Origin: an uncultured Bacteroidia bacterium
Lineage (GTDB): Bacteria > Bacteroidota > Bacteroidia > Bacteroidales > F082
Reading direction: 5' to 3'
Length of the DNA stretch: 37,434 nt
Assembly (NCBI GenBank): GCA_902769875.1
Contig: CACXQV010000023.1
Location: 1 to 37,434, forward strand
Positions 7,806 to 29,262 of the stretch are shown piece by piece. Each line of letters begins with the position of its first letter. Position 1 is the stretch's first letter. The notes under the pieces are model-generated. The model was given only the letters and a program-made list of their open reading frames with translations, did no database searches and was not told where the DNA came from. The position numbers and the translations under genes were made by a program.

Positions 7806-8399
7806 TCACATTTTTATCCTATTGGGGTTTTCGGCGATGAACTGGCTCCAGTCGGCCTTTCGGTGCGCCTTGGCCTTTTCGGTGGTGTGTTTGGTGTAGT
7901 TCACGTCCTTGCCTTTCGAGATGGAATGGCAAACGGCGGCGGCCACGGCATCGGTGGCATCGAAAAACTTGGGGTCTTCGTTGGTCTTGAGGATGAAATG
8001 CACCATCTTGGCCACTTGTTCCTTCGAGGCGTTACCGTTGCCCGTGATGGTCTGCTTGATGGTCTTGGGAGAATACTCGAAAATGGGAATGTCGCGATAG
8101 AGCGCGGCAGCCATGGCCACGCCTTGTGCACGCCCCAGCTTCAGCATCGACTGCACATTCTTCCCGAAAAACGGCGCCTCGATGGCCAACTCGTCAGGGT
8201 GGTATTCGTTGATGATTTCCAAAACGCGCTCAAAAATCTTCTTCAGTTTGAGCGCTTGGTTCTCCAGCTTCTTCAGGTTGATGACGCCCATCGTGATGAG
8301 TTCCAGCTGCTTGCCCTGCTCGCGGATGACGCCGTAGCCCATCACCATCGTGCCCGGGTCGATGCCTAATATGAGTTTTTCGGTATTCAAGGCAAACAT
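7806..8399 (-). CDS. ruvC: RuvC Holliday-junction resolvase
   Basis: This 197-residue endonuclease resolves Holliday junctions with RuvAB. The catalytic acidic residues of the RNase H-like fold are all visible: D14 in LILGIDPG, E74 in AIEAPFFGK, and D147 and D150 in FDATDAVAAAVCH. The chosen start (MFALNTEKLILG) gives the usual spacing before the first motif. A start 13 codons upstream would add a tail that runs into the preceding gene. The ATG overlaps the stop of the HicA-like gene (TAATG), which suggests translational coupling. The C-terminal tail after VCHS is somewhat long and basic. The identification is secure. Confidence 0.95.
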   Translation of the reverse strand: MFALNTEKLILGIDPGTMVMGYGVIREQGKQLELITMGVINLKKLENQALKLKKIFERVLEIINEYHPDELAIEAPFFGKNVQSMLKLGRAQGVAMAAALYRDIPIFEYSPKTIKQTITGNGNASKEQVAKMVHFILKTNEDPKFFDATDAVAAAVCHSISKGKDVNYTKHTTEKAKAHRKADWSQFIAENPNRIKM

Positions 8400-8662
8400 T
8401 ATTTTGACCGCTTTTTCAAATCGCATTGCTTCAACCAAGCCCGTAGATCATTGGCCGTCAAACCCATATTCCGAAGATTGTTTCTAACGATAAATTCAGG
8501 AATAGGGTCAATATGCGTCTGGAAAACAACGGGGCGCAACATACCTTCTTTTGACCATTTTTCATGTCCCGTGTTGCCTGATTCCACTTCTTTGCAACCT
8601 TGTTCTGAGAGGAATATACGAAAATCAGCGATGCTTATATTGCCAATTCGATAAGTGTTCAT
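8399..8662 (-). CDS. HicA-like toxin, divergent
   Basis: The 87-residue product has the order of elements of HicA: an N-terminal helix (ISIADFRIFLSEQGCKEV), a G-x-x-x-x-x-H-x-x-W stretch (GNTGHEKW) in the catalytic-histidine position, a short beta strand with the downstream histidine (VVFQTHIDPIPEF), and a C-terminal helix (NLRNMGLTANDLRAWLKQCDL). It is longer and more divergent than the hicA at 4188-4382. It overlaps the upstream HicB-like gene by four bases (ATGA) and its stop overlaps the ruvC start. It is a probable toxin paired with the upstream gene. Function is inferred from motif layout and gene pairing. Confidence 0.7.
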   Translation of the reverse strand: MNTYRIGNISIADFRIFLSEQGCKEVESGNTGHEKWSKEGMLRPVVFQTHIDPIPEFIVRNNLRNMGLTANDLRAWLKQCDLKKRSK

Positions 8663-9024
8663 GCTGAAATCTGGCAGGTCTTGTTGACATTTGTTTTCTT
8701 GAAGGAGTGGGTGACAAGATTGCGAAGTTGCTCATTCATCCCAAGCATATCCGACAAATCAGGCTCGTTACCTTTGGCTTTCCCCACTTTCCACCCATGC
8801 AAAGCCAAATCAGCACGGAGCGTTCCGTTGCGTAACTGCTCAGAAAGATAATCGGAAAGCATGAAATCGAAATCGGCGCGGGCACTTTCTTCGGTAAGGT
8901 CATAGCCAGAAAGGTCAAGTGAAGGACAATAAGCAATGTAAGTGTCACCTTCCTTGAAGACAAACAACGAAACGCTGATTTCAACGCCATATTTGCTAAA
9001 ACTGATATAGTTTAGATTCGACAT
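8659..9024 (-). CDS. HicB-like antitoxin
   Basis: The 121-residue product begins with the HicB pattern: SVSLFVFKEGDTYIAYCPSLDLSGYDLTEESARADFDFMLSDYL. The phrase D-x-Y-I-A-Y-C-P-x-L-D-L-S-G is typical of the family, followed by a region ending near VTHSFKKTNVNK. The start MSNLNY at 9024 is preferred over an ATG seven codons earlier, because that ATG lies inside the predicted promoter -7 box. The HicA-like gene overlaps its end by ATGA. Here the antitoxin precedes the toxin, the reverse of the first hicAB locus, so the two pairs are not a recent duplication. Confidence 0.78.
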   Translation of the reverse strand: MSNLNYISFSKYGVEISVSLFVFKEGDTYIAYCPSLDLSGYDLTEESARADFDFMLSDYLSEQLRNGTLRADLALHGWKVGKAKGNEPDLSDMLGMNEQLRNLVTHSFKKTNVNKTCQISA

Positions 9025-9042
9025 ATTCTTGTTTTTATGCGG

Positions 9043-9070
9043 CAAAAATAATCATTTTTTTGTTATCAAA
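9043..9070 (-). promoter_or_regulatory. Promoter for the hicBA-like/ruvC unit
   Basis: Read on the minus strand, TATTTTTG (9043-9050) is a good -7 box and TTTG (9067-9070) is a -33 candidate 16 bases away. The hicB-like ATG is 18 bases downstream. Confidence 0.55.
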
Positions 9071-9105
9071 ACAACACCCTTCACAAGTCATAAACCGAAG
9101 CCTTA
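9066..9105 (-). pseudogene. Remnant of the radA 3' end, older copy
   Basis: On the minus strand this reads K-A-S-V-Y-D-L-stop and then a degraded tail (TTGTTTTGA). It shares 21 consecutive bases (9085-9105) with the second remnant at 9293-9313, and the 15-base core TCATAAACCGAAGCC (plus strand) with the true radA end. Confidence 0.65.
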
Positions 9106-9145
9106 TACCTCCGTCATAGGGAATGCCTTGGGAGTATGTTTTCAA

Positions 9146-9244
9146 TCTTGCGCTTATACATAAGAACACATTTTCACGCCGAGTTTTGCGTGTTCTACAC
9201 ACATTTTCCACCCGACTTTTGGCGCAAAAATACACATTTTCCAT
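9146..9244 (-). repeat. Three imperfect 33-bp tandem repeats
   Basis: Units at 9212-9244, 9179-9211 and 9146-9178 (minus strand) each contain TGAAAATGTGT or TGGAAAATGTGT near their start, and read in frame as MENVYFCAKSR, VENVCRTRKTR and RENVFLCISAR. The first unit also contains a TATTTTTG box (9225-9232). Whether this is coding is doubtful; it may be a regulatory or mobile repeat. Confidence 0.6.
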
Positions 9245-9270
9245 AAAAGACCTGCAAAAAATGAAATTTT

Positions 9271-9313
9271 TCAGCCAAACAACTCCGCCCCCAAGTCATA
9301 AACCGAAGCCTTA
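9271..9313 (-). pseudogene. Displaced 3' end of radA
   Basis: The minus strand reads K-ASVYDLGAELFG-stop, matching the C-terminus of the intact RadA encoded at 15357-16730 (VASVYEMGGELFG-stop). The 36 bases differ at about five positions. There is no other radA sequence upstream of it, so it is only the terminal piece. It is interpreted as a displaced original or foreign radA end left by insertion at this site. Confidence 0.75.
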
Positions 9314-9412
9314 GAAAATCGCCCAAATGTACCCCTAAAATCATACATTTGGGCGAAATTCTATAGAAAAACGCCTAAATCTTGTGTTTTTATACCACAT
9401 TTGGGCGATTTT
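9314..9412. repeat. Left copy of a ~99-bp palindromic repeat flanking the ATPase gene
   Basis: It contains two inverted repeats in series: CGCCCAAATGTA facing TACATTTGGGCG, and CGCCTAAAT facing ATTTGGGCG. It is about 95% identical to 10909-11006 in the same orientation. It begins directly after the radA remnant. Confidence 0.9.
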
Positions 9413-9437
9413 CTTGCATGCCAAACATAATATTGTG

Positions 9438-9445
9438 TATTTTTG
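9438..9445 (+). promoter_or_regulatory. -7 box for the ATPase gene
   Basis: TATTTTTG lies 20 bases before the start codon, with TTG at 9414-9416 as a possible -33 element. Confidence 0.5.
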
Positions 9446-9465
9446 CCACAAAATTACAATCAAAT

Positions 9466-10908
9466 ATGGATACACTCATCGGACGGAAACGCGAAATGGA
9501 AGAACTGGAACGATGCATGAATTCCAATCGTTCGGAGTTCGTCGTCATCTATGGCAGACGGCGCGTCGGGAAAACCTTCCTCGTGCGCAATTTCTTCCAC
9601 GACAACTACACCTTTTATTATGTGGGCGCACACAAAAGCACGCAAAAGAAACAATTGGAAAATTTCGCGAAAGCGTTGTCCAAATATGGAAGTTTTGCCG
9701 AGCAGCCCAAACTGAACTCTTGGAGCGAGGCTTTTGACGCCCTGTCTGTTTTATTGGAACAAAGCAAGCATAAGAAAAAGGTGGTTTTCATCGACGAGAT
9801 GCCTTGGATCGACAACAAAAGCAGCGATTTTGTGGAGGCACTTGAATATTTTTGGAACAGTTGGGTGGCCACCCGCGACGACATCGTTCTCGTAGCTTGC
9901 GGCAGTGCCACTTCTTGGATGGTCGACAAACTGATTTCCAACCAAGGCGGGCTCCACAACCGCATCACAAGGCAAATCTATGTTGCGCCTTTTACACTCA
10001 ACGAATGTAAGCAATACCTTGACAACAAGGGCTTTGGATGGGACTATTACCAGATTATCCAGTGCTATATGGTACTTGGGGGCGTACCTTATTATTTGAG
10101 CCTTCTCGAACCTAATCTGAGCTTGCCGCAGAATATTGATGCCCTATTTTTCGCCATCGGCGGAAGGCTCAGCGATGAGTTTGATGAACTCTACAACTCG
10201 CTTTTCTCGAAAGCCGACCGTTATGTCTCGGTCGTCAAGGCTTTGTCGTCCAAGCGTGAAGGCTTGACTCGGGCTGAATTGGAAACCGCTTCCGGGCTTT
10301 CGGGCGGCAACCTGACTCGTGTCTTGAAAAACCTGCAACGCTGCGATTTCATCGTGAAATTCGCCCAATTCGGCTGCAAGAAAAAGAATACAATTTACAG
10401 AATATCTGACTTTTATACATTGTTTTATTTCCGATTCATCGAAAGTAACGACGACAAAGACCCTGATTTTTGGATGCACAACTTTATGACCCGCAGCGTT
10501 GAGACTTGGGAAGGTTTTACTTTTGAGATGGTTTGCCTCAAACACCTCAACGCCATCAAGAAAGGATTGGGCATTTCGGGCATTGCCACCACAGTATCTT
10601 CGTGGCGCGTTGGGCCAAAAAAGGACGAAAACGGGCAAGTGGAACACAAAGGCGCACAAATCGACCTCATCATTTCGCGCATTGATAAGATGGTGCATTT
10701 GTGCGAGATGAAATTTGCCTCAAAGCCCTACGTCATCAGCAGTGATTACAAGGAAAAACTCAATGAAAGGATGATGATTTTCCGCAACGAGACCAAGACC
10801 CCGCTCAAACTGGTTCACACAATGATAACGCCATTCGGTGTTGCCAAGGGCAAAAACTTCGGCTTGTTGCACAGCGAAATCACTGCAAAGGAACTATTTT
10901 CTGATTAG
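9466..10908 (+). CDS. AAA ATPase (PF01637-type) with C-terminal DUF234/PD-(D/E)xK-like domain
   Basis: The 480-residue protein has a P-loop ATPase domain with Walker A YGRRRVGKT (residues 29-37), Walker B KKVVFIDEMPW, and a sensor-like VACGSATSW, in the style of the archaeal-type ATPase_2 family. A winged-helix region follows (SSKREGLTRAELETASGLSGGNLTRVLKNLQRCDFI). The C-terminal DUF234-like part ends with GAQIDLIISRIDKMVHLCEMKF, which has the D...ExK arrangement of PD-(D/E)xK nucleases. An in-frame upstream start would put 28 residues inside the flanking repeat and is rejected in favour of MDTLIGRKREM, 20 bases after a -7 box. The gene sits exactly between two palindromic repeats and its stop abuts the right one, which suggests a mobile cassette. 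The biological role of this family is unsettled. Confidence 0.85.
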   Translation: MDTLIGRKREMEELERCMNSNRSEFVVIYGRRRVGKTFLVRNFFHDNYTFYYVGAHKSTQKKQLENFAKALSKYGSFAEQPKLNSWSEAFDALSVLLEQSKHKKKVVFIDEMPWIDNKSSDFVEALEYFWNSWVATRDDIVLVACGSATSWMVDKLISNQGGLHNRITRQIYVAPFTLNECKQYLDNKGFGWDYYQIIQCYMVLGGVPYYLSLLEPNLSLPQNIDALFFAIGGRLSDEFDELYNSLFSKADRYVSVVKALSSKREGLTRAELETASGLSGGNLTRVLKNLQRCDFIVKFAQFGCKKKNTIYRISDFYTLFYFRFIESNDDKDPDFWMHNFMTRSVETWEGFTFEMVCLKHLNAIKKGLGISGIATTVSSWRVGPKKDENGQVEHKGAQIDLIISRIDKMVHLCEMKFASKPYVISSDYKEKLNERMMIFRNETKTPLKLVHTMITPFGVAKGKNFGLLHSEITAKELFSD

Positions 10909-11006
10909 GAAAACGCCCAAATGTACCCATAAAACCATACATTTGGGCGAAATTCTATAGAAAAACGCCCAAATCTTGTGTTTTTATACCACATTTGGGC
11001 GATTTT
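10909..11006. repeat. Right copy of the ATPase-flanking palindromic repeat
   Basis: It is the same unit as 9314-9412 in direct orientation, with about four differences, and starts at the base after the ATPase stop codon. Both inner palindromes are intact, so the transcript would form stable hairpins here. It may double as a terminator, since T-rich sequence follows. Confidence 0.9.
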
Positions 11007-11070
11007 TTAATATAAGTGTAGTTCTTTTCGTCGTTTCTGATTTCTCTGCCTGTGTTTTGCTTTTTCTTTG

Positions 11071-11078
11071 TAACTTTG
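11071..11078 (+). promoter_or_regulatory. -7 box upstream of a broken small gene
   Basis: TAACTTTG matches TAnnTTTG, 18 bases before ATG 11097. Confidence 0.5.
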
Positions 11079-11096
11079 CCTCCAAAATAAGCAAAT

Positions 11097-11296
11097 ATGA
11101 AAATCACATCACAACCCAAGACTCAATACCAACACAAGGACTTGGCAGCAGGACGCTGGGCGACGATGACCTTGGTGAGTTCTGCCGCCTTTATGAAGTC
11201 CTCGCTGATTGCTACTACGGCGACAACATCTATCAAACCGACCCTGTAAAGTTGCAGCGGTATTTTGATGTGTTTTATAATTTGACAATTACATGA
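11097..11296 (+). pseudogene. Internally deleted, frameshifted small Bacteroidota protein
   Basis: The promoter-proximal ATG starts MKITSQPKTQYQHKDLAAGRWATMTL, the kind of N-terminus I associate with a family of uncharacterised Bacteroidota proteins of roughly 110-130 residues. The typical C-terminal phrase (GEFCRLYEVLADCYYGDNIY, then a YFDVFYNL end) follows, but in another frame and with the middle of the protein absent. The N-terminal frame runs on to a TAA after IKPTL. I read this as a deletion remnant. The family memory cannot be checked here. Confidence 0.5.
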
Positions 11297-11336
11297 AAAA
11301 CAAGGTATTGTATTGCAAATACAACGAAACGAATTT

Positions 11337-12203
11337 TCAAGGATTGTAATAAATTGTATATCCTTCACCTTCAAAGACCAATTCGCCATTATTCCCATAT
11401 AACAACTGCTTAAAAATGCATCTGTTACCATCATAAACATAATCTTTGTATTCTTCTCTCAACACACCATTCCAATATTCTTGTTTTCCAACGGGCTTTT
11501 TATCCTCATATTGATAAAATGTTTCAGTAGTAATTCCATTATCCACATTATTACTTATCGGCTTAGAGATATAATGAGTAATTCGCCGATATGTATCATC
11601 AAGATAGGTGTATGATTGCCCATATATGCTATTTAAAATGCCAGTTTCTGTATCATAGATGTATGTTGAATAACTACAATTCAAGCCATCCCAACGAACA
11701 TCTTTAGTTTCTTGCCATAATACTCCTAATGAATATCTTCTTATTCCAACACATTTCTTCCCATCGTATTCATAAAAAACCTGACTTGTAATTCCATTAT
11801 TTGTTTTTGTTTCTCCATATTTCGGATAAGAATACATATCATCAATAAACTCGTCATACGCTTCAAATTCTGAAGATAGATTCTTTATGGTATAGGTTCT
11901 TGTTAAACCATTGTATACAAAATTATTCCTTTGAGCACGCAATTCATCATCACGATAGCTTTCATACAATAGCTCTTTGTTTCCATCATAATTATAGATT
12001 TTTTTGTATTTCTGAGTACGGATCCCATCGTATTGAAAATATACTTCTTCTAAAGTTCTTGTGAAAGACAAGTCCACTTCAAAATGTTGGGGAGTTTCTG
12101 GGGCATTTCCTTGGGGAACATCTTTCTTATTACAAGATGTTGTAACTATCAACATCAAACTTGCAAATAGTGCATTCCTCATCAAAAGTTTTACTATTTT
12201 CAT
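11337..12203 (-). CDS. Lipoprotein of unknown function with YD-like text repeats
   Basis: The 288-residue product has a lipoprotein signal with lipobox VTTSC and is otherwise rich in Tyr, Asp and Asn. Several segments follow a loose pattern of the kind YxYDGxxxxGxxxYxxGVLxxExKDxxxDG: FYEYDGKKCVGIRRYSLGVLWQETKDVRWDG and FYQYEDKKPVGKQEYWNGVLREEYKDYVYDG are near repeats about 90 residues apart. This resembles MORN/YD-style beta repeats of cell-surface proteins, but I cannot place it in a named family. A start seven codons later (MRNALF) is also possible. It lies 29 bases downstream of the LRR lipoprotein gene on the same strand and is probably co-transcribed. The DNA is more AT-rich than the core genes. 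Confidence 0.75.
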   Translation of the reverse strand: MKIVKLLMRNALFASLMLIVTTSCNKKDVPQGNAPETPQHFEVDLSFTRTLEEVYFQYDGIRTQKYKKIYNYDGNKELLYESYRDDELRAQRNNFVYNGLTRTYTIKNLSSEFEAYDEFIDDMYSYPKYGETKTNNGITSQVFYEYDGKKCVGIRRYSLGVLWQETKDVRWDGLNCSYSTYIYDTETGILNSIYGQSYTYLDDTYRRITHYISKPISNNVDNGITTETFYQYEDKKPVGKQEYWNGVLREEYKDYVYDGNRCIFKQLLYGNNGELVFEGEGYTIYYNP

Positions 12204-12232
12204 AATTATTTGATTTGTAATATATTAAAAAA

Positions 12233-13597
12233 CTACATTCCAACAATTATTTCAGAGTATTTGTTCCAACCGGGAGATACCTTATATGCTTCAACGCTTA
12301 TTTGAGGAACTCTTAAGATTTGAAGAATACCACCTAAAAAATAATCAGATTCTGCTATCGGTGGAGTGGCTGCCATGCTAGTTACTTCAATTAAAGACTC
12401 ACAATTTTTAAAAGCATCTCCTGAAATACTCTCTATACCACAGCCCAAAGACACTGTAGTTAACTCAGAGCAACCATTAAAAAGGTCAAACTCTATAGTT
12501 ATAACTCCATCAGAAATACTTGCAGTACGCAAATGAGAACAATTCTCAAAAGCTTTGCCACCAAGAACAGTAACCGAATTGGGGATAATAATGGAGGTTA
12601 ACTTTGTACACTCGCAAAACGCGCTACTTCCAATATCCGTTACAGAATTAGGAATAGTTATTGATGACAGATTCGTACAAAAGGCGAAAGCGCAACCACC
12701 AATACTTTTTGTGGTATTGGGAAGATTAATAGTTGTCAATTCTGTACATTGTTGAAAAGCCCTATAACCTATCTCCTCTAAAGTGCTACTTAACGAAACA
12801 GCATGTAAATTACTGCACCCCCAAAAAGCACCACTGGCAATTGTTTTTACGGTGTTTGGCATCTGGATTTCACCTAATGAAGTACACCCACAAAAACCGC
12901 TCAACGAAACAATTGAATTACCCAATGATACTTGTGTTAATCCAGTACAATGGTAAAAAGCGTCCCAACCTATTTCATACAAAGAATCGGGAAAATCTAA
13001 AGATGTCAGTTTTGAACAACGCAAAAACGCATCTTGGCCTATAGTTTTCAAAGAATTACCAAATTTTACAGATAATAATTCGGTACACAAATAAAAGGCT
13101 TCATCATGGATTTCTATGAGAGAATTGGGGAAATCTAATGATTTTAGAAGTTGACATTCCCTAAAAGCAGCTTTCCCAATGCTAATAATAGTACTGGGAA
13201 ATCTGATGGAACGAAGGCGATCGCATTTGTAAAAAGCATAATCTCCAATACTATTCACAGTATAAGTTCTATTCAAGTATTCTACCTTACTCGGAACAAT
13301 AATATTACCTTGATAAACAAAATTTGTTTGGCAATTTACGACTTCTGCCTCGTTGATTCCTATTAATTTGAAAAAAAGCGTGGAACCATTTGCATAATCT
13401 ACCTGTATTACATTTCCATTACTATTTGCAACCAAAATGGCTGATAATGCAACAGGGTCAATGTCTTGATAAACTTCTCCCCCTCCGTTTCCATCACTAC
13501 CACCATCATTACCACCTTCAATTGTTGGGTCTTTCTTACATCCAGCAACAATGCTTACAAATAAAACGCTTAACAACAACAAAAATCTAACTTTCAT
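12233..13597 (-). CDS. BspA-like leucine-rich-repeat (LRR_5) surface lipoprotein
   Basis: The 454-residue product has a signal ending in lipobox IVAGC, a Gly/Asp/Ser-rich linker (GGNDGGSDGNGGG), and then at least a dozen LRR_5 units of about 23 residues with the pattern SIGxxAFxxCxxLxSIxxPNS (for example SIGDYAFYKCDRLRSIRFPST and DIGSSAFCECTKLTSIIIPNS). BspA-like proteins of Bacteroidales and other anaerobes are surface adhesins or binding proteins; binding here is inferred. The start MKVRFLLL is chosen because it opens the signal peptide; an ATG 12 codons upstream precedes the -7 box. The DNA is AT-rich and repetitive, consistent with acquisition and slippage. Confidence 0.9.
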   Translation of the reverse strand: MKVRFLLLLSVLFVSIVAGCKKDPTIEGGNDGGSDGNGGGEVYQDIDPVALSAILVANSNGNVIQVDYANGSTLFFKLIGINEAEVVNCQTNFVYQGNIIVPSKVEYLNRTYTVNSIGDYAFYKCDRLRSIRFPSTIISIGKAAFRECQLLKSLDFPNSLIEIHDEAFYLCTELLSVKFGNSLKTIGQDAFLRCSKLTSLDFPDSLYEIGWDAFYHCTGLTQVSLGNSIVSLSGFCGCTSLGEIQMPNTVKTIASGAFWGCSNLHAVSLSSTLEEIGYRAFQQCTELTTINLPNTTKSIGGCAFAFCTNLSSITIPNSVTDIGSSAFCECTKLTSIIIPNSVTVLGGKAFENCSHLRTASISDGVITIEFDLFNGCSELTTVSLGCGIESISGDAFKNCESLIEVTSMAATPPIAESDYFLGGILQILRVPQISVEAYKVSPGWNKYSEIIVGM

Positions 13598-13620
13598 AAT
13601 TGCTATTTTTAATAATCGGA

Positions 13621-13628
13621 CAAAAATA
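13621..13628 (-). promoter_or_regulatory. -7 box for the two-lipoprotein operon
   Basis: The minus strand reads TATTTTTG 24 bases before the LRR lipoprotein ATG. No clear -33 element is visible. Confidence 0.45.
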
Positions 13629-13676
13629 GGCAATTTCTACATTCATAAAGTATATATGGAAAACTTTTTGTTTCAA

Positions 13677-13707
13677 TTGAAGTGTTTTTATAAAATGTTT
13701 AATTTTG
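13677..13707 (+). promoter_or_regulatory. Promoter for the CoiA-like gene
   Basis: TTTG (13677-13680), then 19 bases, then TAATTTTG (13700-13707) is a textbook Bacteroidota promoter. The ATG is 17 bases downstream. Confidence 0.7.
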
Positions 13708-13723
13708 CTCAAAAAACTCGCAC

Positions 13724-15343
13724 ATGAGAAATCCATTGATAAAGTATGCCTATGACGGTGAAACAGGTGAAATGTATGATTCTGACATTCTTTTTGAGAC
13801 CGCCAAGAGAGGTGCTGAGGCAAGGGAAAAGTATAGTTTAGGATTAATAAAGTATTTCTGTTGCGAATGTGACCAGCTTTTGGGTATTACCATGAATCAC
13901 TTGGGACATTGTTTTTTCAAACATCATCCAAATCATTCGTATTGTAGATTATCACAAGAAAACTTGTCAATCAACGAAACGACAGAATACAATAATAAGG
14001 CAAAGGAAAGTTATAGGCATAAATATTTAAAAAATAGAATCGGAAAATTATTGAAACAAACAAAAGACATTGATGTAAACTCCATATCCATAGATGAGTT
14101 ATTTATTAATGATTACGAAGAAAGGAGAAAGCCAGATGTGTATTGTGTATACAAAGGTTACCCTTTGGCGTTTGAAATCCAAATCTCTCCTATGTCTATT
14201 GGTGAAATCACTCGCAGAAGTGAGTTCTATAAACGAAATAAAATATATTTGATATGGATAATGGATGAGTTCAACGCATATAAGCAACGAATGTTAGATA
14301 AAGATATCAAGTATCGCACCAAATACCAGAATATTTTTCAACTCAACGAGAAAACAACTACTTTGGAACTAAACTGCCATTATAAAAAACCGTTTTTATA
14401 TTATGAAGATGAAATCAGATGCCGTTGGGAAAACAAGAATCTTTCATTGAACGAATTGCATTTTGACGAAGATTATAATGTGTATTATTTTGATTATCAA
14501 TCTGAATATAGAAAATTAAATGACATTGTTGAAGAAACTCAATTGAGGAGAGAAGAAAACGAAAAACGAGGCAGAGCTATGACGAAAATAGAGCCAATAA
14601 TAAGAGATATTCGTTATTGCCATAATTACAATGTTCAAAGTTATAAAAACATTAAAGATGATTTGAAATCGCTTGATGAATATGAAGTTGAGGTTTTTAG
14701 AGATGTTTTTCAAAATGAAAACAAGAAATTTGCCAATTTGACAGATTTATTAGACAATGCTTCAGAGTTAGAATCTGCTTATTATCAGTTCGTAGTATCT
14801 TCCCCAGAAGTTGGAATTGATTTTGGTCAATTCAAGAAAAAGACATTATTGATGAGCATTCTTGGAAATGATAAATTGCGAATAAGTGTAATTATCGGCT
14901 TGTTTCAAAACGGTTACATATTATCGGAACAAGATAAATCCTTTATAAAAGAAACTAAACCAACAAAAGGAGATTATAATTATGAAAAACTAATTTGGAT
15001 GATTTATTGGTTTAATAAATTGAAAAACAAAGAATTGATTTCGACAATTTGCCTTTACCACAAACAATTGTTTTCTATTCTATCGGCCATAAAAGGTAAA
15101 GTCATTGGTCTTCGATGGAAAGAACATGAATTGATACAAGTTGCAAACAATGCTATTGAACATTATGAAAACTGTTGGAATATTATCGAGATAGCTTTTA
15201 AAAAGAATGTAAATGTATGGTATAAAATAACACACACTCCATCTTTTGCAAAAAAGCAAAACAAATATGATTTTCACCATGTCACAACAGACCAGAATTT
15301 TGAGGCATTATGTAGAGATTTGTTTCCAGAGATTTTTGCCTAA
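13724..15343 (+). CDS. CoiA-like/DUF6035-type protein with zinc-ribbon-like and PD-(D/E)xK-like motifs
   Basis: The 539-residue protein resembles competence-protein CoiA-like nucleases. Near residue 46 the Cys cluster YFCCECDQLLG is followed by HCFFKHHPNHSYC, which may bind zinc. The nuclease-like core runs from RRKPDVYCVYKGYPLAFEIQISPMSIGEI, where D138 and E151-x-Q153 fit the PD-(D/E)xQ variant seen in CoiA-like proteins. The C-terminal 300 residues are mostly helical and carry no motif I recognise. The gene is strikingly AT-rich compared with radA next to it, suggesting horizontal transfer. It ends 13 bases from the convergent radA. It may act in DNA processing or phage defence; that is inference. 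DUF6035 membership is from memory. Confidence 0.7.
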   Translation: MRNPLIKYAYDGETGEMYDSDILFETAKRGAEAREKYSLGLIKYFCCECDQLLGITMNHLGHCFFKHHPNHSYCRLSQENLSINETTEYNNKAKESYRHKYLKNRIGKLLKQTKDIDVNSISIDELFINDYEERRKPDVYCVYKGYPLAFEIQISPMSIGEITRRSEFYKRNKIYLIWIMDEFNAYKQRMLDKDIKYRTKYQNIFQLNEKTTTLELNCHYKKPFLYYEDEIRCRWENKNLSLNELHFDEDYNVYYFDYQSEYRKLNDIVEETQLRREENEKRGRAMTKIEPIIRDIRYCHNYNVQSYKNIKDDLKSLDEYEVEVFRDVFQNENKKFANLTDLLDNASELESAYYQFVVSSPEVGIDFGQFKKKTLLMSILGNDKLRISVIIGLFQNGYILSEQDKSFIKETKPTKGDYNYEKLIWMIYWFNKLKNKELISTICLYHKQLFSILSAIKGKVIGLRWKEHELIQVANNAIEHYENCWNIIEIAFKKNVNVWYKITHTPSFAKKQNKYDFHHVTTDQNFEALCRDLFPEIFA

Positions 15344-15356
15344 TCTATGGAACCTC

Positions 15357-16730
15357 CTACCCAAACAACTCCCCGCCCATTTCATAAACCGAAGCCACTG
15401 GCACAATCTCAATCTTGAACCGTTTGGTATCCAATCCCTTAGCGTTGTATTTCGAGACAAAAATCTTTTCAAAACCTAATTTGTCAGCCTCAGCAATGCG
15501 AGCTTCGATGCGGGTGACGGCGCGGATTTCGCCTGAAAGACCTACCTCGGCGGCAAAGGCATAGCGCGAAGAAATGGGAATATCGGCATTTGAGGATAAT
15601 ATGGCGGCGATAACGGCCAAATCAATGGCGGGGTCATCGACGCGGAGGCCGCCTGCGATATTGAGGAACACGTCTTTTATGGAAAGTTTGAAGCCTGCTC
15701 GTTTTTCAAGCACGGCCAAAAGCATATTCATTCGGCGGAGGTCGAAGCCCGTGGCGGAGCGTTGCGGGGTGCCGTAGGCCGCGCTGCTCACCAAGGCCTG
15801 CGTCTCGATGAGCATAGGGCGTTGGCCTTCCATCGTGGCGGCGATGGCGATGCCGCTCACTTCCTCGTCGCGCTGCGAGAGGAGGATTTCGCTGGGATTG
15901 GTCACCTCGCGAAGACCCGTGGCATTCATCTCGAAAATGCCCAACTCCGAGGCCGAGCCGAAACGGTTCTTGATGGTGCGCAAGATGCGGAAACCATAAT
16001 GGCGGTCGCCCTCGAACTGCAAGACCGTATCGACGATATGCTCCAGAATCTTCGGGCCGGCGATGCTACCGTCCTTGGTGATGTGGCCGATGAGGAACAC
16101 CGGCACCTGATAGGCCTTTGCGATTTTGTTCATCTCGGCAGCCGTTTCGCGGATTTGTGAAATGCTGCCCGCCGTAGCGTCGATATAAGGCGATTCAAGT
16201 GTTTGGATGGAGTCGATGACGACAATGTCAGGCTGGACGTTCTTGAAATGCTTCAGGATTTCCTGCGTGTTGGTCTCGGTGAGAATGAGGCAGTCGGTGT
16301 TGTGGATGCCGATGCGCTCGGCCCGCATCTTGATTTGGGTCTGGCTTTCTTCGCCGGAGATGTAAAGCACCTTACGGCCAGCCAGTTGCAAGGCCGTCTG
16401 CAAGAGCAAAGTCGACTTGCCGATGCCGGGTTCGCCGCCCACGAGGGTCAAAGAGCCAAGCACCAAGCCGCCGCCCAAAACCCTATTAAGTTCCTCATAA
16501 GGCAAAACGATGCGTTGTTCCTTGGCGTTGCCGATTTCCTTGATGGGCACGGGGAAGCCCTTATCCATCTCAGTACCAATGTTTTTCCTCACCGATTGGG
16601 TATCCTTTCCCGTAACGACGGTCTGCTCCGTGCAGGTATTCCACGCGCCACAGGCAGGGCATTTCCCGAACCATTTCGGCGACTCGTTGCCACATTCCTT
16701 GCAGAAAAAGGCGGTTTTTTCTTTTGCCAT
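15357..16730 (-). CDS. radA: RadA (Sms) DNA repair and branch-migration ATPase
   Basis: The 457-residue protein is a RecA-like helicase that drives branch migration in recombination. It shows the four-Cys zinc finger C10-x2-C13-x10-C24-x2-C27, Walker A GGEPGIGKST (98-107), Walker B region DIVVIDSIQTL, the RadA-specific KNRFGS motif, and a C-terminal Lon-protease-like domain. Length is standard. A hairpin with 7-bp arms (16762-16768 against 16779-16785) lies in its leader. Its last codons, ASVYEMGGELFG, are the sequence that recurs in remnants at 9066-9105 and 9271-9313. The 3' end is therefore a candidate insertion site. Confidence 0.97.
   Translation of the reverse strand: MAKEKTAFFCKECGNESPKWFGKCPACGAWNTCTEQTVVTGKDTQSVRKNIGTEMDKGFPVPIKEIGNAKEQRIVLPYEELNRVLGGGLVLGSLTLVGGEPGIGKSTLLLQTALQLAGRKVLYISGEESQTQIKMRAERIGIHNTDCLILTETNTQEILKHFKNVQPDIVVIDSIQTLESPYIDATAGSISQIRETAAEMNKIAKAYQVPVFLIGHITKDGSIAGPKILEHIVDTVLQFEGDRHYGFRILRTIKNRFGSASELGIFEMNATGLREVTNPSEILLSQRDEEVSGIAIAATMEGQRPMLIETQALVSSAAYGTPQRSATGFDLRRMNMLLAVLEKRAGFKLSIKDVFLNIAGGLRVDDPAIDLAVIAAILSSNADIPISSRYAFAAEVGLSGEIRAVTRIEARIAEADKLGFEKIFVSKYNAKGLDTKRFKIEIVPVASVYEMGGELFG
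15382..15396 (-). other. Putative attachment-site core within the radA 3' end
   Basis: TCATAAACCGAAGCC occurs here and again at 9088-9102 and 9296-9310, always in the same orientation. Three copies, two of them at the far side of the accessory block, are what insertions at a gene end would leave. No recombinase gene is visible in the window, so function is inferred only. Confidence 0.5.
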
Positions 16731-16819
16731 ACTATTATTCTCCTAATGGCCGGGCTTTGCCGACAATGAATCATAACCCATTGTCCTTACCAGCGGCCTT
16801 TTTAATCAATTCGTTGGTG

Positions 16820-16827
16820 CAAAAATA
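16820..16827 (-). promoter_or_regulatory. -7 box for radA
   Basis: The minus strand reads TATTTTTGCACC, a good TAnnTTTG box about 90 bases upstream of the radA ATG. Confidence 0.5.
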
Positions 16828-16867
16828 ATAAAAAGCCACAAACGCACCATAATTCCCAATTTTTTAA

Positions 16868-16875
16868 TATTTTTG
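16868..16875 (+). promoter_or_regulatory. -7 box for the secreted protein gene at 16896
   Basis: TATTTTTG lies 20 bases before the ATG, divergent from the radA promoter. Confidence 0.5.
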
Positions 16876-16895
16876 TCGCCAAATCAGCACTTTGG

Positions 16896-17621
16896 ATGAA
16901 GCATCGTTTACTCACATTCCTCGTCATATTGCTCACTTCTCCCCTCTTTGCGCAGCAGGGCGACGTGGTGTTGTGCGAGGGTTTCTTCAACCCTTGGCTC
17001 GAGGAAGGCTGGGACGCAAAAGGCGACGACTGGGTGGTGTGGTACATTTCCAACACGACCTTTGCGGGATGCAAGCCGCGCGAAATGCAGATGTATCCCG
17101 ACTTCAACTTTGAAGGCACAACCCGCTTGGTGACACCCATCGTGGAGTTAGGCAAATACGACTTCATCAATTTCCAGTTCAACCACGCCCTTGAAGCCAC
17201 CCAAGGCGAATTGGATGTCAGAATCGGCATTGGCATTTCGCCAAACGGCGAGGATTGGGAGAGCATTTGGGAGGACACAGTGAGGGGCAGCATCGAGCAA
17301 AGCCAGTATCTGCTCACCTTCGATATGGAGGAATGGCCGAGCAAAGAGCCGCAATTTTGCCTCTATTTCACGGGGCACGGGGCCTATGTCAACAGTTGGT
17401 ACATCGACAATGTCATCATTTTCGCGGCGAAAAAGAACAAATACGGCGACATCGACGACACCGATGAGAACGGTTTCGTAGCCTCGCGGTCGTCCATCAC
17501 CACCTTGAAAGGCCCTTCGGCGGGCACGGTGACGAGTTTCTCAAAAATGAGAAGATCGGGCAGCCGCTATGCGCGTGTGGTGGAAGGCCGACAAAAGAAA
17601 TGGTGGCAGTTTTGGAAATAA
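16896..17621 (+). CDS. Secreted protein with a jelly-roll-like domain, unknown function
   Basis: The 241-residue product has a signal peptide ending PLFAQQ and then a beta-rich domain of about 150 residues. The pattern EGFFNPWLEEGWDAKGDDWVVWYIS, then TPIVELGKYDFINFQFNHAL, then SWYIDNVIIFA is reminiscent of the cleaved-adhesin/MAM-like jelly-roll domains of T9SS proteins, but there is no sorting domain. The C-terminal 50 residues are basic and disordered-looking, ending QKKWWQFWK. It stops three bases before the convergent recJ stop. I do not know its function. Confidence 0.75.
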   Translation: MKHRLLTFLVILLTSPLFAQQGDVVLCEGFFNPWLEEGWDAKGDDWVVWYISNTTFAGCKPREMQMYPDFNFEGTTRLVTPIVELGKYDFINFQFNHALEATQGELDVRIGIGISPNGEDWESIWEDTVRGSIEQSQYLLTFDMEEWPSKEPQFCLYFTGHGAYVNSWYIDNVIIFAAKKNKYGDIDDTDENGFVASRSSITTLKGPSAGTVTSFSKMRRSGSRYARVVEGRQKKWWQFWK

Positions 17622-27341: not shown

Positions 27342-27372
27342 CAAAACTACAAACAGCTCCAACCGCAGTCAA
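27342..27372 (-). promoter_or_regulatory. Promoter for the T9SS cargo gene, overlapping the 35-bp repeat
   Basis: On the minus strand TTGAC (27368-27372), 18 bases, then TAGTTTTG (27342-27349) gives a -33/-7 pair. The -33 element lies inside the 35-bp direct repeat shared with the regulator's upstream region, so binding there could block or recruit polymerase. Confidence 0.55.
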
Positions 27373-27402
27373 GGAAATGATGGTGCGGATTGGTGCGGAT
27401 TT
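27368..27402 (-). repeat. 35-bp direct repeat, copy upstream of the T9SS cargo gene
   Basis: It is identical to 29202-29236 and contains TGGTGCGGAT twice in tandem. It lies 74-108 bases upstream of the cargo gene's ATG. Confidence 0.9.
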
Positions 27403-27419
27403 CGTTAAACGAATAGGAA

Positions 27420-29159
27420 TCAGCGGATTAAATCCGATTTTGCCATTCTGCGTAAGATGGTTGAAAGCGGTTCGTCGCTGCCGAAAATGCCTTTCAGTTT
27501 GCGGCTGCGTTCGCAAACGGTGTTGAAAGCGCGTTGCATCAAGGCGGCCACGTCGGCTTCCTCCACGCCCAATAGATAAAGGCAGCAATAGTCGATGTCG
27601 CCTTTGGTCAGCGCGGGATAATCGTTTTTGAGTCGGGCGATGAACGCTCCAAAATGGGCATCGGCAGCCTCGCGCACGGCCAACAGTTGCTCCTTGGTGA
27701 GGGCGTAGTCCTTATAAACAAGGTAATCCACCTTCGACTTGAACTGCCCTTCGTTCACCCGCTCCATAATCAGGCGGCAGACGGGTTCCTCGGCAAACGA
27801 GGCGGCTTCCATCCGCTTTTTCATTGCTGAAAGAGCCTCACCTTGCTCTTGCAAACGTCCCGAAAGGGCTTCTTTCTCTGCTTCAATGCGTTGATGCCGT
27901 TTCCGATTGAGCATCAGCCAAACCGCAAGCACCAAAAGCAAAGCCATCAGCGGAAGGACGATTTTCATAATCCGTCCACGGTTTTCCCTTTCCTCTTGAA
28001 GTCGGGCATTGTCCTGTTTTTGTTGCAAATAGTCCTGAAACAGGCTTGTAAACCGCCATTCATCCGCCTTGGTGCCAAACTCGGGCGGCGTGTTTTGCGC
28101 CACAAATCGGGCAAATTCGCCAGCCTTGTCCGATTCTCCACGGGCTTCGTAAATCTCGCGCAAATAATCGGCACTTTGGGTTTTCAGGAACATATTGGGT
28201 GCTTCCTCAAAGACCCGATTGAGGTAAACGATGGCCGAATCATACTGATTGTCAAGTTTATAGATATAGCCAATACCCAAATAGCGGTCGTGCTTTTCGA
28301 ACTCATTGCCAACCGTTGCAATGCGTTTGAGCGCGTCAACGGAGGCCTGCCCATCGTGCGCCAAATGATAGGACGACAACGCTTTCCGATTGATGACATT
28401 TCGGTAAAGCACCCCTGTCGTGTCTTTCATACTCGCCAACGAGCGGTCGTAATAATACAAGGCACTGTCGAACTGCTCCGACTTCTCAAACTCATAGCCC
28501 AAGAAAAACAAGGTGTTGGCCAAACTTGAAGGCGGATTGTTGGCTTTCTTCTTGTATTTCAGCACATTCTTGTAAAGATAAACCGTCGGCTCGATGAGGA
28601 ACTTGTCGGAATAGATGTTGGCCAATCGGGCATAAATCAGGGCAATGAAACTCGCTTTGTGTCCCACCATCTGCTCCTCGACAAAATGTTGCTCCATAAT
28701 TGCCAAGGCCTTATAATACTCTTGACAGGCCAACATTGTGAGGGAATCGTCGGTGAATATAGTGCCATTGTTGATGCAAATGGCATTCATATAATGGGCG
28801 CGGGCGGAAAGAAAAGCCATAGCCTTGTCGTGGGTGTAAACAGAGGAAACGCTGTCGAAATAAGCCAAAGCAGCACCCACTTCGTCACAGTAGGCCACCT
28901 CGCGGCGCACTTTGAAACAGGCCTCCGAAAGCATCAAACTCGTGTATTCAAAAGCAGGTGACGAAGCGGGATTAATACTCTCATAAAACCACTCAAGATA
29001 CCTCAAAGCACTGTCTGGATTGCTCTGCAAAAGGCTGTCAACCACTACCAAACGTGGGCAACTGTTCTCTTGCCAACTGATTTCAGATTCCAAGGCTCTT
29101 GAACACGAAGCTCCGAGACCAATCCATAACAAGCCTGCTATAATGCGCGATAGTTTCAT
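27420..29159 (-). CDS. TPR-repeat transmembrane transcriptional regulator with C-terminal HTH
   Basis: The 579-residue protein has a lipobox-like signal (GLGASCS), about eight TPR-like helical pairs in the periplasmic part (SNPDSALRYLEWFY, SEQFDSALYYYDRSL, DNQYDSAIVYLNRVF), one membrane helix (IVLPLMALLLVLAVWLML), a coiled coil, and a cytoplasmic C-terminus with a LuxR-like HTH (LTKGDIDYCCLYLLGVEEADVAALMQRAFNTVCERSRKLKGIFG). Such proteins in Bacteroidota are thought to sense envelope signals and regulate nearby genes; this is inference. The start MKLSR is preferred, yet a -7-like box ends only five bases before it. The gene is enclosed by two 35-bp direct repeats. Confidence 0.8.
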   Translation of the reverse strand: MKLSRIIAGLLWIGLGASCSRALESEISWQENSCPRLVVVDSLLQSNPDSALRYLEWFYESINPASSPAFEYTSLMLSEACFKVRREVAYCDEVGAALAYFDSVSSVYTHDKAMAFLSARAHYMNAICINNGTIFTDDSLTMLACQEYYKALAIMEQHFVEEQMVGHKASFIALIYARLANIYSDKFLIEPTVYLYKNVLKYKKKANNPPSSLANTLFFLGYEFEKSEQFDSALYYYDRSLASMKDTTGVLYRNVINRKALSSYHLAHDGQASVDALKRIATVGNEFEKHDRYLGIGYIYKLDNQYDSAIVYLNRVFEEAPNMFLKTQSADYLREIYEARGESDKAGEFARFVAQNTPPEFGTKADEWRFTSLFQDYLQQKQDNARLQEERENRGRIMKIVLPLMALLLVLAVWLMLNRKRHQRIEAEKEALSGRLQEQGEALSAMKKRMEAASFAEEPVCRLIMERVNEGQFKSKVDYLVYKDYALTKEQLLAVREAADAHFGAFIARLKNDYPALTKGDIDYCCLYLLGVEEADVAALMQRAFNTVCERSRKLKGIFGSDEPLSTILRRMAKSDLIR

Positions 29160-29201: not shown

Positions 29202-29236
29202 GTCAAGGAAATGATGGTGCGGATTGGTGCGGATTT
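29202..29236 (-). repeat. 35-bp direct repeat, copy upstream of the TPR regulator
   Basis: It is identical to 27368-27402 in the same orientation and lies 43-77 bases upstream of the regulator's ATG. Flanking bases are unrelated, so the copied unit is sharply bounded. Confidence 0.9.
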
Positions 29237-29262
29237 TTTATGTATGATTAGGTATCAGCAAG

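Follow-up and report, generated by a model that had tools for sequence, protein, structure and literature searches.

The window analysed here, 37,434 nucleotides long, is contig C23 of the draft genome of an uncultured Bacteroidia bacterium (G000; 3,502,815 bases in 138 contigs, 82.6% complete, with 5.7% contamination). It carries radA, which encodes the DNA repair protein RadA/Sms, and between the 3' end of this gene and ruvC lies accessory DNA in which the end of radA recurs. For comparison we used genomes of the same genus (G002, G003 and so on), taking the DNA behind radA as 32 stretches from 30 genomes, each of 232 bases to 15 kb. The features of the locus are as follows.

15357..16730, minus strand: radA (RadA/Sms), intact, host gene of the hot spot (TIGR00416, E 2.1e-172)
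15357..15398, minus strand: current radA 3' end, repeat copy T1, from the core and direct-repeat searches
13724..15343, plus strand: CoiA-nuclease-like protein (DUF6035, DUF7829, CoiA_nuc), ending 14 bp from the radA stop
12233..13633, minus strand: BspA-type leucine-rich-repeat gene (LRR_5), lipoprotein-like by eye
11337..12203, minus strand: lipoprotein-like gene (by eye), without Pfam match
11097..11296, plus strand: relic of an open frame, broken, where the CoiA-like block borders the ATPase cassette, without Pfam match
10905..11006, no strand: radA-side end of the PDC-S27 cassette, a 102-bp repeat with 95% identity to its distal counterpart
9466..10908, plus strand: PDC-S27 ATPase with Walker A/B and D400, E414-x-K416 (PD-(D/E)XK-like)
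9311..9412, no strand: distal end of the PDC-S27 cassette, a 102-bp repeat made up of two palindromes
9271..9313, minus strand: radA-end remnant 2, abutting the hairpin repeat of the PDC-S27 cassette, with counterparts in G018 and G064
9103..9161, minus strand: relic of a PDC-S01 (AAA_14-DUF4143) ATPase gene, its first 31 nt and last 28 nt with stop, body deleted
9064..9105, minus strand: radA-end remnant 1, more degraded; its counterpart is the remnant behind the AAA_14 gene of G018 and G064
8659..9024, minus strand: HicB-like protein (by eye; without Pfam or PADLOC match), with a relative near radA in G012
8399..8662, minus strand: HicA-like protein (by eye; without Pfam or PADLOC match), with a relative near radA in G012
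7806..8438, minus strand: ruvC, bounding the hot spot on its far side in G000 (PF02075, E 5.1e-49; TIGR00228)

Going from ruvC towards radA, the HicAB-like genes are followed by remnant 1, the PDC-S01 relic, remnant 2 and the PDC-S27 (hereafter S27) cassette with its two repeats, and then by the broken frame, the two lipoprotein-like genes, the CoiA-like gene and the current radA end. The radA gene is 94-99% identical in 7 other genomes of the genus. NCBIfam offered no family for the accessory window proteins submitted, and in Rfam nothing reached the gathering score across 8300-17000.

Read on the minus strand, the radA 3' end is present three times in the window (15357-15398, 9271-9313 and 9064-9105). 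Each copy contains a 15-base core, TCATAAACCGAAGCC, in exact form and on one strand (15382-15396, 9296-9310 and 9088-9102), and these are the only three exact copies in the entire draft; the reversed control pattern gave none. A direct-repeat search grouped three 47-nt copies, with 81% and 68% identity to the reference copy. Translation of the minus strand yields ASVYDLGAELFG followed by a stop at 9271-9313, and ASVYDL followed by a stop at 9064-9105. A profile of the radA 3' end matched the two remnants at E 6.4e-6 and 0.036, the second match being weak, and local alignment to radA's own tail gave the remnants scores of 52 and 38, where none of 20 shuffled tails exceeded 25. Of the three core-bearing copies, one is the radA 3' end itself and two are remnants of it, the outer one degraded. 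A preliminary description of this DNA had reported these copies in the same orientation, which is borne out; it placed one remnant at 9271-9313, as found here, and recognized a second, degraded one, whose extent is now corrected to 9064-9105, both being about 39-42 nt long.

The same signature recurs in relatives. Extra radA ends were found in 6 of the 32 downstream stretches (G000, G002, G007, G018, G022 and G064, the last with five) and also in RUG390. When 60 genomes of the genus were searched with a pattern allowing up to 3 mismatches, 18 gave matches, and every extra copy lay on the radA contig, downstream of the gene and within 6.1 kb. Short two-copy repeats often arise by chance, and the extra ends might be fortuitous or belong to a dispersed repeat unrelated to radA; the three exact cores in one genome, the confinement of extra copies to DNA downstream of radA and the before/after pairs described below already contradict this, and we regard it as virtually excluded. 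A site without insertion, which the preliminary description had expected in relatives, exists in G075, where the ATG of ruvC follows the radA stop by 10 bp. Elsewhere the genes behind radA include HigBA, HicAB, Imm11, DUF4160/DUF2442, lipoprotein-like genes and ATPases. We conclude that the radA 3' end in this Bacteroidales genus is an insertion hot spot that small accessory cassettes have entered successively. No remnant was found within up to 1.5 kb behind radA at 11 further loci (10 from other families of the order, 1 a second locus of G019), nor in 7 kb behind radA at four more distant loci of the same genus (L049-L052). A candidate remnant in G004, scoring 30 against up to 29 for shuffled sequence, was too weak to be counted.

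Before/after pairs of loci, which are comparisons between species (the body of radA being 88-92% identical), define the junctions. G002 from position 1415 onwards corresponds to G058 from 62 nt before the radA stop onwards, a gain in G002 of about 1.48 kb with about 62 nt of radA repeated. Likewise, G064 from 3268 onwards corresponds to G073 from 43 nt before the stop (3.3 kb gained, about 43 nt duplicated). Compared with G018, both RUG390 and G064 have a DUF234-type ATPase cassette accompanied by a 46-nt repeat, and in RUG390 the gene is reduced to its start. The junctions thus start at -39, -43, -46 and -62 in radA. Grouped by eye, there are about five distinct kinds; ATPase-nuclease cassettes or their palindromes accompany four. 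Because the 62-nt junctions of G002, G007, G018, G022 and G064 have a common upstream sequence, they probably go back to a single old event. In G018, the S27 cassette has the inverted 16-nt sequence AGAAAATCGCCCAAAT at both of its outer ends, 2 bp from each radA copy. G064 has no S27 gene and has a single palindromic repeat between two radA remnants, the pattern expected from loss between direct repeats; on grounds of parsimony, it would have lost the gene between its palindromic repeats, with one repeat left. Insertion with a duplication of tens of base pairs at the radA end is well supported by these comparisons. As had been proposed, radA stays whole and its displaced old end is kept as a remnant, because many of these insertions duplicate 39-62 nt spanning the end of the gene.

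The accessory DNA of the window comprises at least three layers and is not one island: the PDC-S01 relic, the palindrome-ended S27 cassette, and a 4.3-kb block of CoiA-like and lipoprotein-like genes. The relic amounts to 59 nt, and its counterpart in G018 and G064 is an open frame of 445 aa. Since G018 has the same S27 cassette directly against radA, the CoiA-like block probably arrived later than that cassette, leaving no remnant at its inner border. The earlier inventory of an ATPase, a broken gene (at about 11097-11296), lipoproteins and a CoiA-like protein stands, but not as one unit, the DNA between the remnants being the scar of another cassette; its reading of two remnants as two events holds in spirit, the remnants having once flanked the PDC-S01 ATPase gene. 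The notion of one block with one mobilizing enzyme is at odds with the layering, with the remnant-free border between the CoiA-like block and the ATPase cassette and with duplicated lengths of 39, 43, 46 and 62 nt; because this length varies, a fixed att core fits poorly.

Rebuilding of a gene 3' end at insertion is typical of tyrosine integrases, and the preliminary description left the mobilizing enzyme unknown or supplied in trans. In this reading, a tyrosine or serine recombinase encoded elsewhere would act site-specifically, with attB at the radA 3' end and crossover at the 15-base core, in the manner of staphylococcal cassette chromosome (SCC) elements or cis-mobilizable elements (CIME). 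The exactness of the core in three window copies agrees with this, as do one shared element that switches near the core, a few tyrosine recombinases of non-Xer size in six genomes scanned, and serine recombinases in two of them. The absence of an integrase noted in the window extends to the radA contigs of these six genomes, some of them short, on which neither PF00589 nor PF00239 matched at E 1e-5. Over the whole genomes we counted 3 tyrosine recombinases in G000, 5 in G018, 3 in G064, 3 in G002, 4 in G007 and 4 in G022, and serine recombinases in G018 (2) and G022 (1), with 0 in G000, G064, G002 and G007. The sets of G000 and G064 argue against an enzyme in trans: two of the three tyrosine recombinases in each are of a kind present in all six genomes, which from its size we take to be Xer-like, none lies on the radA contig, and there is no serine recombinase. 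The varying junction starts argue in the same direction. A Pfam scan of 20 of the 126 open frames listed behind radA in relatives found no recombinase, and no known transposase was seen among 8 window proteins, including that of ruvC, and 20 proteins of relatives (of the 126 frames). The radA end had no match in plasmids or phages; as for the core on mobile DNA, a loose pattern matched three viral contigs only, and the parts of these examined match none of 12 window proteins. We consider a recombinase in trans decidedly improbable.

The window ATPase matches the PADLOC profile PDLC04984 (PDC-S27) at E 4.2e-197, over residues 1-478 of 480, and PDC-S01 is matched by the AAA_14 gene of G064 (E 1.2e-152); for the ATPase copies, the PADLOC scan comprised only the window copy and the DUF234-type gene. 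By profile, which the window gene matches over its whole length, these two genes belong to the candidate defence genes of those names, described as ATPase domains fused to the PD-(D/E)XK superfamily and as abundant, most such candidates awaiting validation (PMC12988326). An anti-phage role of PDC-S27 is that of a candidate. The ATPase part of the window protein matches PF01637, with Walker A/B invariant in the aligned proteins, and D400, E414 and K416, a putative PD-(D/E)XK-like motif, do not vary in alignments of 23 and of 21 proteins. The predicted structure (mean predicted local distance difference test score 86; proteins for the structure alignment from 20 of 28 loci) resembles the archaeal ATPase PAB2304 and ORC/Cdc6. 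The 50 PDB fold matches listed were all ATPases, with no nuclease fold among them, and a PDB sequence search gave no match at E 0.01; the nuclease part is putative, assigned by motif only. Close relatives of the window ATPase occur in uncultured Bacteroidales, including isolate RUG390, bacterium F082 and a metagenome-assembled genome from goat reticulum.

G000 itself contains 39 matches to the window ATPase; 27 cover 459 or more of its 480 residues, one of them interrupted by a stop. We examined the flanks of 52 S27 loci, being 57 minus 5 with partial genes. Palindromes close to the gene, with a stem score of at least 13, were present in 54 of 102 flanks against 0 of 102 shuffled ones; of 51 loci (one set aside for a short flank), 38 had a palindrome on at least one side, as counted from the listing, and 16 on both sides, against none after shuffling. 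Matching left and right repeats near the gene were found at E 1e-5 in 22 of the 52 loci, compared with 7 of about 2,630 mismatched pairs, where matches more than 500 bp from the gene had been left out, as had 22 ordered pairs, of which 20 came from a group of five related radA-type loci and 2 from L062/L079. The 22 loci include those five radA-type loci, and L063, whose repeat is no palindrome by stem score. Sixteen of the 22 belong to the 27 near-full-length copies of G000, the repeats being mostly palindromic and some standing at duplicated gene ends; the words 'palindrom', 'hairpin' and 'inverted repeat' do not occur in the main text of the report on these candidates (PMC12988326).

The palindrome sequence differs between S27 copies and tends to match across both sides of one gene, and the window palindromes are not scattered through the G000 genome. 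Of the 7 mismatched-pair matches, five link window-type loci with the Prevotella locus L167, whose ATPase is 58% identical to that of the window, and two link L168 and L169 with L055; taken as a pointer, these cross-locus matches hint that palindrome and S27 protein may evolve together. An ATPase-nuclease gene present in multiple copies, often between hairpin repeats of its own, hints at a mobile gene without the usual integrase. By eye, many S27 palindromes in G000 and other genera have a common inner CCAAA-TTTGG core with copy-specific outer letters, resembling an operator or recognition site. At L080, a 62-bp repeat stands on both sides of an S27 gene beside a relic, in opposite direction, of a second S27 gene. 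This repeat, without a clear gene end, and a 25-bp flank repeat in permease-like sequence at L057 were set aside.

Duplicated gene ends also occur at three other genes, whose names (miaB-like, ettA-like and enoyl-CoA-hydratase-like), like that of the ATPase-like gene at the last, were assigned by eye and not by profile. In G000 a further copy of the miaB-like 3' end (57 nt) lies on the far side of an S27 gene, and there is another copy that is degraded; G064 has the same S27 gene at this site together with the degraded tail copy, in DNA that stops short of the far side; 13 of 15 loci (14 genomes) have neither the S27 gene nor a tail copy in the downstream DNA examined. In some relatives miaB overlaps or almost touches the neighbouring gene. 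At the ettA-like gene it is the start (about 32 nt) that is duplicated, upstream of an S27 gene in G000, and 23 of 24 loci with enough upstream DNA lack that gene (26 loci minus L231, where the gene start is missing, and L218, with 59 bp upstream; the paralogue loci L236-L239 were left out). The 3' end of the enoyl-CoA-hydratase-like gene (40 nt) is duplicated around the ATPase-like gene, with an S27 cassette alongside. Target duplication together with relatives that lack both insert and duplication was observed at the radA, miaB-like and ettA-like sites, its variable length being unusual for a transposon. The sequences of the other target genes are unrelated to the radA end, a further point against a recombinase acting at a fixed core. 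Extra copies of the core, which the preliminary description had suggested seeking at other islands, were found in the 60 genomes searched only behind radA; the other three genes bear similar marks. In L209 (3687-6653), at an enoyl-CoA-hydratase-like gene, the gene end is followed by an ATPase-like gene, a gene-end remnant, a hairpin, an S27 gene and a hairpin, an order like that of the G018 radA array.

The insertions could also be the outcome of ordinary horizontal transfer, in which incoming DNA would pair with radA through homology at one end and be joined by illegitimate recombination at the other; selection would retain only events that spare the neighbours, and no special enzyme or site would be involved. 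In its favour, the radA-ruvC junction of 10 bp in G075 and the overlapping or near-touching neighbours at miaB in some relatives mean that tolerated insertions there must duplicate a gene end. Random joins would nevertheless give longer remnants too, and those found are short: none matches the 5' end of the 93-nt probe, the first matched profile position being 18, and none begins before -62 in pairwise maps with about 200 nt of radA. Nor would ordinary transfer explain the palindromic cassette ends and the recurring ATPase-nuclease genes. We judge it improbable.

We tentatively put forward, as possible rather than probable, a hot spot of successive cassettes, many of them duplicating 39-62 nt across the radA end, with ATPase-nuclease genes (PDC-S27, PDC-S01 and the DUF234 type) as the drivers. 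The role of these proteins as the engine of insertion is conjectural. The ATPase-nuclease would cut the target with a long stagger, and filling of the gaps would produce the direct repeat. Where genes are tightly packed, an insertion would leave both neighbours intact, and survive, only if its duplication covered an end of a gene; gene-end duplications would be the visible survivors for this reason. Exchange across the short repeats might then carry toxin-antitoxin and immunity genes through the hot spot. A more specific proposal, which we hold to be doubtful, is that PDC-S27 (perhaps also PDC-S01 and the DUF234 type) represents selfish mobile genes that would recognize their own palindromic ends and make target duplications of 20-60 bp, best tolerated at gene ends, building up arrays behind core genes such as radA.

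Several observations weigh against ATPase-nuclease-driven insertion. Twenty-six of the 32 downstream stretches have no radA remnant and insertions without one exist: the S27 gene of G003 adjoins radA, an Imm11 cassette stands behind radA in G012, G072 and G022a, and the CoiA-like block of the window has none towards the ATPase cassette. A HigBA cassette duplicates about 62 nt yet has no ATPase. The duplicated ends of miaB and ettA lie about 30-300 bp from the palindromes instead of abutting them, and outer repeats were found at E 1e-3 in 7 of 52 S27 loci compared with 11 of about 2,630 pairs; of six 'outer' flank repeats, those of L171 and L182 are distant hairpins, so that four remain. The argument from packed junctions is limited by the presence of ruvC behind radA in only 16 of 32 stretches (on the other strand in G010), and ruvC was not found there in G018 or G064, both with clear arrays. 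The compared genomes are drafts, and the contamination of G000 has to be borne in mind.

The remaining evidence of this kind concerns an element shared by G022a, G002, G012 and G072, which are 97-100% identical from the radA stop onwards. The draft of G022 contains two different radA genes (contigs C39 and C62; 6% contamination), with unlike elements behind each. In a comparison of 24 radA tails, with G014, G019, G075 and more distant genomes left out, the last 39 nt of the gene differed at 1.67 positions among the four element-sharing genomes and at 5.31 in other pairs, whereas differences in the 64 nt upstream were hardly lower (8.50 against 9.28). The tail is alike and the DNA upstream is not, which suggests that the radA tail travels with the shared element, something that plain target duplication does not predict. 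This tail allele is common, 92 of 8,855 four-genome subsets being equally alike (23 sequences, without G074b, which is nearly the same as G044). Import of the tail with every cassette was discarded as an explanation, the overall tail divergence being like that of the gene body (5.31 differences seen, 4.57 expected).

Integrase-free exchange offers an account of these tails: a cassette, as a circle or fragment with a copy of the radA tail, would enter or leave by host recombination between imperfect repeats of 40-60 nt. It agrees with the shared element that begins at the radA stop, its tail more alike than the gene body, and also with the two tail copies of RUG390, which by eye share letters missing from the G018 tail (a weak sign, some of these letters being in G064). 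As a case of movement without a recombinase, the closest precedent is the small H47 island of Escherichia coli, which is reported to lack a recombinase of its own and to move between extensive imperfect direct repeats, also without RecA (PMC5426353). As described there, H47 has 13 kb and one cargo, whereas the cassettes here are of about 1-4 kb, nested, at several gene ends and equipped with ATPase-nuclease genes. Exchange of this type would not account for the first joining of a tail to each new cassette, for the recurrence of ATPase-nuclease genes at all four target genes, or for the duplication of a gene start at ettA; the likeness of the tails is itself weak in view of the equally alike subsets. 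We think it unlikely, if a serious contender.

Islands of the tyrosine-integrase type at gene 3' ends, like SCC-type elements at rlmH, restore the gene end and accrete in tandem. The arrays described here are similar in lying at the 3' end of a conserved gene, in restoring it, in tandem accretion and in direct repeats derived from the gene end; they differ in that no recombinase was found on the radA contigs of the six genomes scanned, in a variable repeat length and in one target that is a gene start. In REP (repetitive extragenic palindromic) sequences with RAYT (REP-associated tyrosine) transposases, a nuclease-type gene stands beside its own copy-specific palindromes, as the predicted nuclease does here, whereas the window palindromes are not dispersed and, in place of an HUH (Y1) enzyme, there is an ATPase bearing a PD-(D/E)XK-like motif. 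In the open-access literature, no title or abstract was found that describes multicopy ATPases with palindromes, radA as an island site or gene-end islets like these. If the ATPase-nuclease genes were mobile or selfish genes with their own palindromic ends, their counts as candidate defence systems would need another reading, and the proposed insertion mechanism would be directly testable. Gene-end remnants, for their part, form a layered record of insertion at a core gene and offer a way to spot such elements where no integrase marks them.

Two further repeats lie elsewhere in the window. A 58-bp direct repeat of 86% identity, with the first 35 nt exact (27368-27424 and 29202-29259), surrounds a 581-aa open frame on the minus strand; the pair adjoins the ends of two frames and may be another end duplication. 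At 930-1059, near the edge of the window, a 65-bp tandem duplication (97%) close to the 3' end of a frame that is permease-like by eye may have shifted the frame.

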